From Parcubacteria group bacterium ADurb.Bin115 (GTDB lineage: Bacteria > Patescibacteriota > Patescibacteriia > Patescibacteriales > UBA12465), in the NCBI GenBank assembly GCA_002070735.1, contig MWDX01000022.1, forward strand, positions 1-36,424: 36,424 bases of DNA. Direction: 5' to 3'. Positions 876-6,549 of the stretch are shown in pieces. A model generated the notes under the pieces. That model was not told where the DNA came from and searched no databases. It saw only the letters and a list, made by a program, of their open reading frames with translations. The position numbers were made by a program, and so were the translations under genes. The stretch's first letter is position 1. The number at the start of each line of letters is the position of its first letter.

Positions 876-3800
876 TTAATTTTCTAACCCGTAACTGGTG
901 CTATAGGAACCGCCAGCTTGGCCACTAGGAATTTGGACTTGGATATGAATCTTAGTTTGCATCCCGGGAGCGTTCGGAGAGGTGTTATTATCGATATTTA
1001 AGATAATATCATCAGGATAAGTGTTCGCGGCGGTAATAAAGACCGGATTGCTTGCGCTGCCTCTTAAACCGGACGTAATCTCTTCTGACCAATATTTCAT
1101 ATTGCCGGCAACCGGCAAAGTATTGCCGCCCGAGGTCCAATCCGCAAATTTGAGATGGAAATGGTTGGCATTAGTCGGAATAGTCGCAGACATAACCCAT
1201 TCCCAGCCATTATCATAGCCACCGTTAGCTACGCCCCAATATCTGATCTGACTGATATTATCCACGGCTAAAGCGCCGGTTGGAGCGGATTCGGTGGTAA
1301 ATTGCGAAGTGGTAGGTGAACCGTAATCAGCTAATAAATGATTGCCGGCTAAATCGGCGATACCGGTTGTGACTTTAATCCAATAAGACGTGGCATTATC
1401 TAATATCAAATTAGGACCACCGAGCCTGATCATTTTCTGGTTTTCCATCAACATCGGCGAACCGATATTAACCGGGGTAGCACAGGTCGGATCATCGACT
1501 AAACATAACATCACGGTTGTGCTGCCGATGGTCGTCGGATCTAAAGCTTCATTAAAGCTGACATATAAATCATCGGGGGTAATACTGACATTAGTCGAAC
1601 TGGCGGCCGGAACTTGGCTGACAAAGAGAGGGCTGGTGGTATCTGAAGCATTAGAAACAAGGAAAGTAACATAATCACTATAACCGGTTAAACCTGAAAC
1701 AGTGTCTTTAACTCTTAAAGTGTGGCTGCCATTAGCTAGGGAGGTGGTATCTAAAACATAAGTGCCGGGATTAGCATTAGTCGTAGCAGCCGTATATGCG
1801 CCTCCGTCGATAGAGACTTGGGCATTAGTTGTCGCTCCGGAATTAGTAGTAAAAGTCAAAGTGGTTGTAGCTAATAAAGTTGCGCCGGCCGTGGGATTAG
1901 TGATAGCAATAACCGGGGCAGCAGGAGCACCATCAGCGACTACATCATAAGAAGTAGCAAATTGTTGTATAGTATTTCCTGTTATATCGGCGGCATCAAT
2001 GGATAAACTATATCTTCCTATCACCCCTCCATGAGTAAGGCTGTATGTCCAGGTCCCGGGTATTGCTGTCTCAGTGGCATCAAAACCATTTACCTTTACG
2101 GTATCAGCAGTATTATTTTCAACAATTGTTACTACTACAATTGGATCTAACGTAGCTTGATAAGCCGTTTTATCAACATTTACGTTACTTATAACCGGAG
2201 CAATAGTATCAACTCCAAATGTTCCTGCGGTATTATCTGCAAGCATTGTATTGGTGGCAACATCTTTGGCACCAGATACGGTTATAGTGGCTGTTGCTGC
2301 TTCATTATTATCTAAAACTGTAAATGTCCCCACCCAGGTATTTGCAGTATAAGAAGATTGCGTCACCGTGTAAGGATTCGTTGCAAGCCCTGTTATTCTA
2401 ATTGTTGGGGGAGTCGCGGTATCCATTAATTCACTGAATACAACTGTAATGGTTGCAACCCCTGGACCTGCGGGGTCTGATCCGACTGTCGCAGAGGTAA
2501 CGGTCGGTTTGACATTATCAGTGATCGCTACTGGATCGGCGGTGGCATCGGCATTGCCGATTACATCAGTCACTCCATCAGTCGGATTTAATGTAGCACC
2601 ACTCACAATCGTGGTTTCCGTTCCCAGGGTGATTGTGAGAATGGTGTTAGTCGGGGTATTCCAGGTGGCGGTAAATCCAGTCGCGCCGAAGATTCCGGCT
2701 GAGAGACCCAATTCCGTGGCTAAAGCAACGGGGTCGGCTGTGGTTAATGTGGCCGTATCCATCGCCTCGCTAAAGGTGACGGTCAGGGTGTCGGTGCCGC
2801 TGATAGCGGTACTGGCATCGACATCAGTCCAGACTATAGTATTTAATGTAGGATTTAAGGTATCGACATCAATGGTACCGGCCGTCGTGTTATCAAGCAT
2901 GACGTTAGTGGCTAGATCCTGAGCGGTAGTAACCTTGATATTTCCAGTCGCATCTTCGTTTCCGTCAGTGAGGGTGACGGTGCCAACCCAGGTATCTCCG
3001 GTATATGTGGATTGGGTAACGGTATAATCGTCACCGGCTAAGTCGGTTAAAGTGACAACCGGGGGGACAGTTGTATTCATTGTCTCGCTGAAGACGACAG
3101 TGACAGTCACCGCCTCGTTTTTCGCCGGATTAGGGACAGCGGTGGCTGATTCAACTGTCGGTCTGACATTATCAGTGATCGCTACTGGATCGGCGGTGGC
3201 ATCGGCATTGCCGATTACATCAGTCACTCCATCAGTCGGATTTAATGTAGCACCACTCACAATCGTGGTTTCCGTTCCCAGGGTGATTGTGAGAATGGTG
3301 TTAGTCGGGGTATTCCAGGTGGCGGTAAATCCAGTCGCGCCGAAGATTCCGGCTGAGAGACCCAATTCCGTGGCTAAAGCAACGGGGTCGGCTGTGGTTA
3401 ATGTGGCCGTATCCATCGCCTCGCTAAAGGTGACGGTCAGGGTGTCGGTGCCGCTGATAGCGGTACTGGCATCGACATCAGTCCAGACTATAGTATTTAA
3501 TGTAGGATTTAAGGTATCGACATCAATGGTACCGGCCGTCGTGTTATCAAGCATGACGTTAGTGGCTAGATCCTGAGCGGTAGTAACCTTGATATTTCCA
3601 GTCGCATCTTCGTTTCCGTCAGTGAGGGTGACGGTGCCAACCCAGGTATCTCCGGTATATGTGGATTGGGTAACGGTATAATCGTCACCGGCTAAGCCGG
3701 TCAAAGTGACAACCGGGGGGACAGTTGTATCCATTGTCTCGCTGAAGACGACAGTAACAGTCACCTCCTCGTCTTTCGCCGGATTAGGGACAGCGGTGGC

Positions 3801-4211
3801 TGATTCAACGGTCGGTTTGACATTATCAACCTCAAATACGGCATTAGACGTGTCATAAACGTTAACATTATCTGATCGGTAAACTTTAATAAGATAATTG
3901 CTGCCATTGGCTACGGAGCTGGTATCCCAATCAAAGGTTCGAGTACCGGCGGCAATTCCTTCTGTAATTAATGTAGACGTCTGCCAATTATTAGTGGTAT
4001 AAACAATGTCCACTGTGCTAACATCGCCAACTTCAGTCCAAGTAATATCCTGATGTCCGCTCCAGACTTCGCCACCATTAGGAGCGGTTACGGTGATATT
4101 AGTGATAGCGGCGTTCGCCTGATAAACAAAAACCCCGCCGATGGCCACTATAACTAATGCCATTCCCAGCAGCGTTCGTTTAAACATTTTCTCTTTTAAA
4201 AAGTTTTTCAT
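876..4211 (-). CDS. Large secreted protein with repeated Ig-like domains
   Basis: 1111 aa. Residues 1-35 form a signal peptide (basic start, hydrophobic core LLGMALVIVAIGGVFVY, cleavage near QANAA). Residues about 36-130 (VTAPNGGEVWSGHQDITWT) resemble the Ser-Thr-rich/Kre9-Knh1-like surface domain. Residues 132-349 and 350-567 are two almost identical 218-residue units, each ending in Asp-rich bacterial Ig-like sequence (TLTVTFSEAMDTATL). A diverged third unit, more Ig-like segments and a Big_5-like domain (TSPLFVSQVPAASSTNV, about residue 875) follow. The last ~130 residues are a distinct unrecognised C-terminal domain. No LPXTG motif or C-terminal membrane anchor is seen. The start is ATG 4211; ATG 4187 (residue 9) is possible and has a weak AAAGAGAA before it. 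The likely role is cell-surface adhesion or shell protein, inferred only from architecture. Confidence 0.9.
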   Translation of the reverse strand: MKNFLKEKMFKRTLLGMALVIVAIGGVFVYQANAAITNITVTAPNGGEVWSGHQDITWTEVGDVSTVDIVYTTNNWQTSTLITEGIAAGTRTFDWDTSSVANGSNYLIKVYRSDNVNVYDTSNAVFEVDNVKPTVESATAVPNPAKDEEVTVTVVFSETMDTTVPPVVTLTGLAGDDYTVTQSTYTGDTWVGTVTLTDGNEDATGNIKVTTAQDLATNVMLDNTTAGTIDVDTLNPTLNTIVWTDVDASTAISGTDTLTVTFSEAMDTATLTTADPVALATELGLSAGIFGATGFTATWNTPTNTILTITLGTETTIVSGATLNPTDGVTDVIGNADATADPVAITDNVRPTVESATAVPNPAKNEAVTVTVVFSETMNTTVPPVVTLTDLAGDDYTVTQSTYTGDTWVGTVTLTDGNEDATGNIKVTTAQDLATNVMLDNTTAGTIDVDTLNPTLNTIVWTDVDASTAISGTDTLTVTFSEAMDTATLTTADPVALATELGLSAGIFGATGFTATWNTPTNTILTITLGTETTIVSGATLNPTDGVTDVIGNADATADPVAITDNVKPTVTSATVGSDPAGPGVATITVVFSELMDTATPPTIRITGLATNPYTVTQSSYTANTWVGTFTVLDNNEAATATITVSGAKDVATNTMLADNTAGTFGVDTIAPVISNVNVDKTAYQATLDPIVVVTIVENNTADTVKVNGFDATETAIPGTWTYSLTHGGVIGRYSLSIDAADITGNTIQQFATSYDVVADGAPAAPVIAITNPTAGATLLATTTLTFTTNSGATTNAQVSIDGGAYTAATTNANPGTYVLDTTSLANGSHTLRVKDTVSGLTGYSDYVTFLVSNASDTTSPLFVSQVPAASSTNVSITPDDLYVSFNEALDPTTIGSTTVMLCLVDDPTCATPVNIGSPMLMENQKMIRLGGPNLILDNATSYWIKVTTGIADLAGNHLLADYGSPTTSQFTTESAPTGALAVDNISQIRYWGVANGGYDNGWEWVMSATIPTNANHFHLKFADWTSGGNTLPVAGNMKYWSEEITSGLRGSASNPVFITAANTYPDDIILNIDNNTSPNAPGMQTKIHIQVQIPSGQAGGSYSTSYGLEN
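2511..3818 (-). repeat. Two tandem 654-bp units inside the surface-protein gene
   Basis: Unit A is 2511-3164 and unit B 3165-3818; the period is exactly 654 bp (218 codons). By direct reading, 2511-3042 equals 3165-3696 without a difference (532 bp). The remaining ~120 bp of each unit hold all the differences I found, about ten, several of them non-synonymous (D/G, N/D, A/E, R/K). A short start of a third unit at 3819 (GACATTATCA) then diverges. This is consistent with recent duplication or gene conversion. Confidence 0.95.
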
Positions 4212-4965: not shown

Positions 4966-6114
4966 CTAATCATTTTTACTAAAAATATCTATATATTTTT
5001 TATATATATAAGATTGCCCATATTTAACATCTTTATCTTTCTTAGAGAGAATTCCAATCTGAACAAAACGATCAATAACTCTTTGAGCCCCAGCTCTGGT
5101 ATAGCCAGTCCATTCTTGAACATTAGAAACGTTTACAATAGGCTGTCCATAGAGTTTCGGTAAAATAATAACAGCACTTTCTGATGCTCTGGTTCCTAAT
5201 TTTTGTATTTTTTGTGTATCCTTATCTCTTAGTTCAGTAATTTTTTCTACAGTTACAATCGCCTCTTGAGCTATTTCTATAACTCCATCTAAGAAGAAAT
5301 CTACCCAATCAAATACATTCCCATTATGATAGGCCCTTAATTTTTCATAATATAATTCCTGATGGCGCTTAAAATAAGAAGATAAAAATAAAACTGGTTT
5401 ATCTAGAAATTTTTCTTTCCATAAATAAAAAGTAATAAGCATTCTTCCTGTTCTGCCGTTGCCATCTAGAAAAGGATGGATAGTCTCAAATTGAGCATGA
5501 ATTATTCCAGCTTTTATTAAGGTTAAAATCTCTTCATCAGAATATAAAAACTTTTCTAAATCAGCTAAGGCTATTTTCATTTCTTCAACTGGTGGTGGAA
5601 CAAAACGAGCATTATCAGGACGAGTGCCGCCAATCCAATTTTGAGTTTTTCTAAATTCCCCTGGATCAGAAAACTGAGTAGCACGAGCCTTGTCCATTAA
5701 TTTTAAGTGTAGCTCTCTAATAAAACGAAGGGAGATTGGAAAATCATCATCTTTTACTCTTTTCATGCCATAATTTAGAGCCTTAATATAATGCAAAATA
5801 TCATCAACATCTTGTGGGACGTTAGCGTTTATTTTTGCCTCCGCCTCAATAGCGTCAACCATAGTAGCTTTAGTTCCCTCAATTTGACTAGAAGAAGCGG
5901 CATCTTTTCGTATATACATCCAAAGAAAAAAATCGATATCGGGTAAAAGTTTAGTAATACCATCCAATTTCCCTAATAATCTCGTGGCTTGTTCATTTTT
6001 TTTAAGTATTGAAAAATCAAAAGAAAATCCCTCTTCCGGAGGAAATTTATTAGGAATAAAGGCCTTATAGCCAGTTATTTGTTGTGTATTTTTACCTATT
6101 TCTACTTTTTTCAT
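4966..6114 (-). CDS. Fic-family protein (probable AMPylase) with N-terminal inhibitory helix and C-terminal winged helix
   Basis: 382 aa. The Fic core HPFLDGNGRTGR starts at His213 and is complete, with catalytic His, phosphate-binding Asn/Gly and the terminal Arg, so transfer of AMP (or another nucleotide) to a protein hydroxyl is expected. Residues 75-80 (SSQIEG) match the inhibitory [S/T]xxxE[G/N] motif upstream of the core, as in class II Fic proteins that are auto-inhibited through the Glu (E79). Residues about 320-375 look like a winged helix (VSNVQEWTGYTRAGAQRVID). That is typical of Fic-HTH proteins and suggests direct DNA binding. The gene stands alone, flanked by decayed sequence and next to tRNA-Gln. 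Its promoter is covered with palindromic boxes, suggesting autoregulation. No antitoxin gene is seen beside it, so a classic Fic/Doc toxin-antitoxin pair is unlikely. The natural target is unknown. Confidence 0.93.
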   Translation of the reverse strand: MKKVEIGKNTQQITGYKAFIPNKFPPEEGFSFDFSILKKNEQATRLLGKLDGITKLLPDIDFFLWMYIRKDAASSSQIEGTKATMVDAIEAEAKINANVPQDVDDILHYIKALNYGMKRVKDDDFPISLRFIRELHLKLMDKARATQFSDPGEFRKTQNWIGGTRPDNARFVPPPVEEMKIALADLEKFLYSDEEILTLIKAGIIHAQFETIHPFLDGNGRTGRMLITFYLWKEKFLDKPVLFLSSYFKRHQELYYEKLRAYHNGNVFDWVDFFLDGVIEIAQEAIVTVEKITELRDKDTQKIQKLGTRASESAVIILPKLYGQPIVNVSNVQEWTGYTRAGAQRVIDRFVQIGILSKKDKDVKYGQSYIYKKYIDIFSKND

Positions 6115-6116
6115 AG

Positions 6117-6190
6117 TTTGTATCTATTTAATCTATAATGTATACAAAGTATAGTAGTTTGTATATATTAAGTCAATAGATGTATACAAA
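6117..6190 (-). promoter_or_regulatory. Operator-like array of TTTGTATA / TATACAAA boxes upstream of fic
   Basis: Four half-sites lie within 74 bp: TTTGTATC (6117-6124, touching the fic start codon), TATACAAA (6141-6148), TTTGTATA (6158-6165) and GTATACAAA (6182-6190). The middle two make a perfect inverted repeat, TATACAAA-N9-TTTGTATA, whose spacer contains most of the -10. The 14-mer ATGTATACAAAGTA recurs at 6138-6151 and 6180-6193, exactly 42 bp apart (about four helical turns). A regulator bound here would block the fic promoter. The winged helix of the Fic protein itself is the natural candidate (inference). Confidence 0.75.
6148..6176 (-). promoter_or_regulatory. Sigma70-type promoter of fic
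   Basis: On the minus strand: TTGACT (-35, 6176-6171), 17-nt spacer, TATACT (-10, 6153-6148). The predicted start, near 6141, leaves a leader of about 27 nt before ATG 6114. No Shine-Dalgarno is visible in the leader. Confidence 0.75.
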
Positions 6191-6272
6191 GTAATATAAT
6201 TCCCCATTAAAAGCTTTAGCGCGCACAACTTAGATTTTGCGCTCACGCCTTAAAAGAATTTGAAAAAAGTAG

Positions 6273-6467: not shown

Positions 6468-6478
6468 AATCTACACTG

Positions 6479-6549
6479 CTCGGGGACAGGGATTCGAACC
6501 CCGATAAACAGGACCAGAACCTGTTGTCCTACCATTAGACGATCCCCGA
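6479..6549 (-). tRNA. tRNA-Gln (anticodon CTG)
   Basis: The minus strand folds as a cloverleaf: acceptor TCGGGGA/TCCCCGA, anticodon stem ACAGG/CCTGT with loop TTCTGGT (anticodon CTG, reads CAG), and T-arm CGGGG-TTCGAAT-CCCTG. The U1-A72 pair and G discriminator fit tRNA-Gln identity. The 3' CCA is not encoded (GCAG follows), so a CCA-adding enzyme is needed. The gene lies downstream of lysS and ends at a T-run terminator. Confidence 0.93.

Follow-up and report, generated by a model that had tools for sequence, protein, structure and literature searches.

A four-half-site array over the promoter of a SoFic-family gene, a probable operator for autorepression by the winged helix of its own Fic protein

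CccR of Yersinia pseudotuberculosis is a class II Fic protein with a C-terminal HTH domain that represses its own gene through inverted repeats near the -35 and -10 elements, and dimerisation is required for this effect. The evidence includes a footprint on its own promoter, EMSA and lacZ autorepression, and regulation and toxicity were reported to be independent of each other (PMC9755527). CbFic2 of Coxiella burnetii is also a class II Fic protein with a DNA-binding C-terminal HTH. Its binding was non-specific in the assays, an operator was not described, and on DNA it becomes a deAMPylating dimer, DNA binding thus switching the mode of the enzyme (PMC10628234). The SoFic family (PADLOC PDLC03963), which also has the class II inhibitory helix, is represented by EcSofic (9VJC) and SO_4266 (3EQX/3ZCN) (PMC12249575). 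DNA binding was stated not to be reported for SoFic (PMC10628234), and we found no description of a SoFic operator or of DNA binding in the open-access papers searched. The C-terminal domain has been treated as a regulator of the enzyme, with a purely enzymatic role, and it is twisted outward in apo EcSofic compared with ATP-bound SoFic; how this single-gene defence stays off was called unclear in the same 2025 structural paper (PMC12249575).

The window analysed here (36,424 nucleotides, the whole stretch of DNA) encodes a Fic protein with the class II motif (S75..E79-G80), H213 and a predicted C-terminal winged helix, all of them present as the preliminary description had claimed (Table 1). 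The Fic motif HPFx[D/E]GN[G/K]R and the inhibitory-helix motif (S/T)xxxE(G/N) occur as HPFLDGNGR at 213 and SSQIEG at 75, and both show little or no variation among 70 relatives. The PADLOC SoFic profile matched over its full length (E = 2.8e-112; protein residues 15-380 on profile positions 5-360 of 361), and the AlphaFold model (pLDDT 93) showed a whole-length fold match to SoFic and to the FIC protein of M. marinum (7CB8). The match to SoFic 3zcn included the C-terminal winged helix (VIA Z 40.1, 356 residues). Among solved structures, 7CB8 came nearest in both sequence (around 27% identity) and fold (Z 40.5 over 367 residues); the fold match to CbFic2 was weaker. Judged from these matches, the protein is a member of the SoFic phage-defence family in the PADLOC sense, with a score of 142.6 bits against the NCBIfam SoFic equivalog NF046030 that lies far under the curated cut-off of 550. 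Pfam recognised Fic_N (PF13784) and Fic and no DUF4172 domain at the N-terminus, whereas both CccR and CbFic2 start with DUF4172 (PMC10628234); secretion by the T6SS is a further feature that sets CccR apart (PMC9755527).

Other genetic contexts were considered and rejected. A type II toxin-antitoxin operon of the FicT-FicA type does not fit, as the inhibitory helix lies inside the Fic protein and the only candidate partners next to it are very short ORFs. No convincing ORF for a small downstream antitoxin was found at the locus, and no counterpart was identified of the AS1 gene that lies downstream of EcSofic.

Table 1. Positions in the window of the fic gene, its protein motifs and the elements of its promoter region
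Feature	Position	Strand	Remarks
fic gene	4966..6114	(-)	382 aa; Fic_N and Fic domains and C-terminal winged helix; assigned to SoFic by PADLOC
Class II inhibitory helix motif SSQIEG (residues 75-80)	5875..5892	(-)	S75, E79 and G80 without variation among 70 sequences
Fic motif HPFLDGNGRTGR (residues 213-224)	5443..5478	(-)	Sequence motif
C-terminal winged-helix domain (around residues 308-380)	4975..5193	(-)	AlphaFold model, pLDDT mostly >90
Recognition helix TRAGAQRVIDRFVQ (residues 339-352)	5059..5100	(-)	Predicted; contains the box-tracking residues A341 and R345
-35 element TTGACT	6176-6171	(-)	Predicted; placement relative to the array shared by close orthologues
-10 element TATACT	6153-6148	(-)	Predicted; 17-bp spacer from the -35; placement shared by close orthologues
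Half-site A	6180..6190	(-)	TTTGTATACAT; upstream of the -35
Half-site B	6158..6168	(+)	TTTGTATATAT; within the -35/-10 spacer, orientation opposite to A
Half-site C	6138..6148	(-)	TTTGTATACAT; touches the -10 and extends downstream of it
Half-site D	6117..6127	(+)	TTTGTATCTAT; ends 2 nt before the ATG; weakest (degenerate) copy

Upstream of this gene, positions 6117-6190 hold four 11-bp half-sites with the consensus TTTGTATACAT, alternating in orientation and spaced by around 21 bp, or two helical turns. Half-sites A to D lie at -76, -54, -34 and -13 relative to the fic ATG, with start-to-start distances of 22, 20 and 21 bp, and like-oriented boxes are separated by 42 and 41 bp. The CccR operator, by comparison, consists of two 10-bp arms around a 26-bp spacer, AGATAATCAT-N26-ATGATAATCT. 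The perfect palindrome previously proposed over the -10 was recovered exactly, as TATACAAA (6141-6148)-N9-TTTGTATA (6158-6165), and so was the 14-bp direct repeat ATGTATACAAAGTA (6138-6151 and 6180-6193, offset 42 bp); a second family of direct repeats is found at 6114/6155 with an offset of 41 bp. The additional half-site placed upstream of the -35 also stood, but the one placed on the start codon has to be moved, since TTTGTATC at 6117-6124 stops 2 nt short of the ATG (6114-6112). As alternating half-sites two turns apart would all lie on one face of the helix, this layout would, with a dimeric protein, suggest two cooperating dimers or a tetramer. The predicted sigma-70-type promoter TTGACT-17-TATACT sits within the array, in a region with two further promoter-like matches (shuffle mean of 1.3). 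A tRNA-Gln(ctg) gene lies around 290 bp upstream of the array (6478-6549, minus strand); insertion next to a tRNA was discarded as a general context, as the tRNAs near orthologues are merely scattered.

The region is AT-rich, so that chance or low complexity could in principle generate such repeats. This explanation is vanishingly improbable: a model-free score for four alternating half-sites reached 59 against a mean of 38.6 in dinucleotide-preserving shuffles (z = 9.3; 0 of 60 shuffles), in agreement with the earlier claim that the array is beyond chance, and reversed-pattern controls and control upstream regions also speak against it. It is refuted by conservation in orthologues. We assembled 110 Fic upstream regions, comprising 80 relatives from genome contigs, 29 from Patescibacteria genomes and 1 from a viral contig, many of them from metagenome bins whose host names are uncertain. 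The region of L124, near repC of an Agrobacterium Ti plasmid, was taken only because its annotation named Fic. Direct 10-mer repeats, counted with no sequence assumed, peaked at offsets of 40, 41 and 42 bp (21, 26 and 13 loci, respectively, where 0.7-0.9 were expected for each), and this peak was absent from the control stretches. The four-box array was found with z≥4 in 53 of the 110 Fic upstream regions and in 6 of 220 upstream regions of other genes, and with z≥6 in 39 and 2 of them, respectively; matches in a shifted register (L018 and L022) were counted as doubtful. Three of the six control matches were themselves linked to Fic, one being the same broken Fic gene (L119) and two lying between fic and the next gene. 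At 60% identity or more, 14 of 17 Fic upstream regions had z≥4 and, by reading the boxes, 16 of 17 close orthologues retained at least three of them. The preliminary description had named the absence of the boxes upstream of orthologues as evidence against its proposal; the array is conserved there. It had also pointed to the word TTTGTATA as the thing to look for in other Fic promoters. The layout does recur there, but the word itself would miss most of the conservation, because it varies between clades while the layout holds: TTTGTATACAT, TTTGTTTACAT, TTTGTTGACAT, TTAGTTTACAT, TAGTTAACACT, AGTTGACATCT, TGACTTAGAAT and others occur as boxes.

Around half of the 110 relatives showed no significant array under the four-box test, and some of these may be operon-internal, decayed (L004) or built differently. 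In L080 (L080:1989-4439; L081 is alike), one of the control matches between fic and the next gene, the hsdM- and hsdS-like genes of a type I restriction system flank fic in the order hsdM-fic-hsdS, and TGTGTAAAGT boxes form an array in the stretch from fic to hsdS instead of upstream of fic. Fic proteins of 57-73% identity, with the same array in whole or in part, also occur in bins assigned to Nanoarchaeota, Anaerolineaceae, Bacteroidetes and Chitinophaga (L008, L009, L013 and L015). Either gene and operator were recently transferred together, or these are Patescibacteria contigs placed in the wrong bins. A mainly phage-borne gene was rejected, as the viral contigs gave one relative only.

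Pseudomonadota members nearer to SoFic proper (L133, L137, L140, L143 and L144) have the same four-box layout, with boxes often like TGTATAGAAAA. The E. coli SoFic loci were found using a Salmonella plasmid homologue as the query; a distant proteobacterial locus, used as a DNA query against E. coli genomes, gave no match. In the E. coli promoters (L147, L148 and L149), ATATGTCGAT boxes recur and a direct repeat of 70 bp is present, which suggests six or more half-sites. SoFic promoters from both E. coli and Salmonella fitted the strict 40-42 bp model poorly (z of 2.2-3.5) despite the repeated ATATGTCGAT boxes. The E. coli SoFic of L148 is identical to PDB 9VJC over the stretch compared, and its promoter arrangement is related to the window array but more complex. 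For L147, the annotation records a frameshift in fic.

The boxes of the array could instead be the sites of some other, unlinked regulator such as a global repressor that happens to control Fic genes, as AT-rich palindromes are common among repressor sites. We consider this very improbable, because the array accompanies Fic genes in distant phyla and because of where the boxes occur and what they follow. A pattern search of the 758-kb genome returned the exact TTTGTATACAT only twice, both times at sites of the array, and one-mismatch sites elsewhere in this genome were not above the control. The pattern TATACAAA-N7..11-TTTGTATA had one occurrence in the 758 kb and none for the reversed-pattern control. 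Likewise, in a second genome (700 kb) the exact TTTGTTGACAT was found four times, all within its fic array. A Fic paralogue in the window's own genome (29% identity) is without this array (z = -1.1). Beside the start codon of this minus-strand gene, on its upstream side, there is a different palindrome, ATTGGATATAG-N5-CTATATCCAAT (L002, C13, around L002:1895-1930), so this paralogue may be autoregulated too, through an unrelated word.

The box word also follows the recognition helix of the Fic protein and not its catalytic core. Across 43 loci, the partial Mantel correlation of box distance with recognition-helix distance was 0.41 given the core (P = 0.002, the floor for 499 permutations), and that with the catalytic core given the helix was 0.03. 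Two residues one turn apart on the predicted helix of the AlphaFold model track specific bases, with base calls made by eye. Lys345 goes with A at box base 3 in 11 of 12 cases (L097 is the exception) and other residues go with T in 17 of 17, while Glu341 goes with G at base 7 in 3 of 3 cases, a base seen in none of the 26 others. On a tree built from the core only, base 3 and residue 345 change three times each and four times jointly, and base 7 and residue 341 change twice each, both times together, Glu341/G having been gained twice; the independent changes behind these counts are few and the sequences are related. The two rules combine independently, as L096 (E341, R345) has TTTGTTGACAT and L017 (E341, K345) has TAAGTTGACAT. 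The box words follow the recognition helix, and in each of two genomes the exact box is confined to the fic array; we regard this as strong evidence for direct recognition of the boxes by the Fic protein. The many diverged pairs of operator and recognition helix would make up a naturally occurring collection of near-orthogonal repressors, and with it the beginnings of a readable recognition code.

We consider it highly probable that the four half-sites form an operator for negative autoregulation, bound by the C-terminal winged helix of the Fic protein. Autorepression through this domain, as first suggested for the locus, is strongly supported by comparison, namely by orthologue conservation, co-variation with the helix and an exact box at its own promoter only. 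We infer binding and repression by the window protein, and from the spacing alone we infer cooperativity: the protein would bind the half-sites probably as two cooperating dimers or as a tetramer along one face of the DNA, covering the -35, the spacer, the -10 and the start region and thereby excluding RNA polymerase. Repression would limit the amount of a potentially toxic AMPylator. Such an autoregulatory loop would be self-contained and travel with the gene, its sequence drifting alongside the recognition helix. Read in this way, the array is a putative case of the autorepression known from the distant Fic-wHTH protein CccR, in a new geometry.

It is very improbable that the bound Fic protein mainly activates, or that the operator DNA sets the state of the enzyme (a dimer, deAMPylating or inactive, as in CbFic2) with transcription control secondary. 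The deAMPylating dimer of CbFic2 on DNA (PMC10628234) and the outward twist in apo EcSofic (PMC12249575) are in line with such a role, but the array lies over the -35, the -10 and the start region in most loci, as expected for repression, and regulation and toxicity were independent in CccR (PMC9755527). The array encloses the whole core promoter at 37 of the 46 loci, and the offset of the -10 from the central dyad is constant in nearly all close orthologues.

For autorepression, phage infection is a natural guess at the relieving signal, given the role of the family in phage defence. Coupling of the AMPylation state to transcription, also raised in the preliminary description, is speculation. 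A rather unlikely form of it is that the operator is also a ligand: Fic bound to the four sites would be kept in an oligomeric state that does not AMPylate, until an infection signal (a nucleotide change or a phage factor) twists the C-terminal domains, with DNA release, higher expression and AMPylation following in one step. If so, sensor, repressor and toxin would all be encoded by the single gene of this defence system. A conserved operator co-evolving with the C-terminal domain would give that domain a second role, and low-level, autoregulated expression is predicted across the family.

Elsewhere in the window, a large predicted surface protein (876-4211, minus strand) has two nearly identical stretches, and the antisense ORFs 2449-2922 and 3052-3576 within its gene have most of their sequence in common. 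This gene appears, from these repeats, to carry a recent internal duplication.
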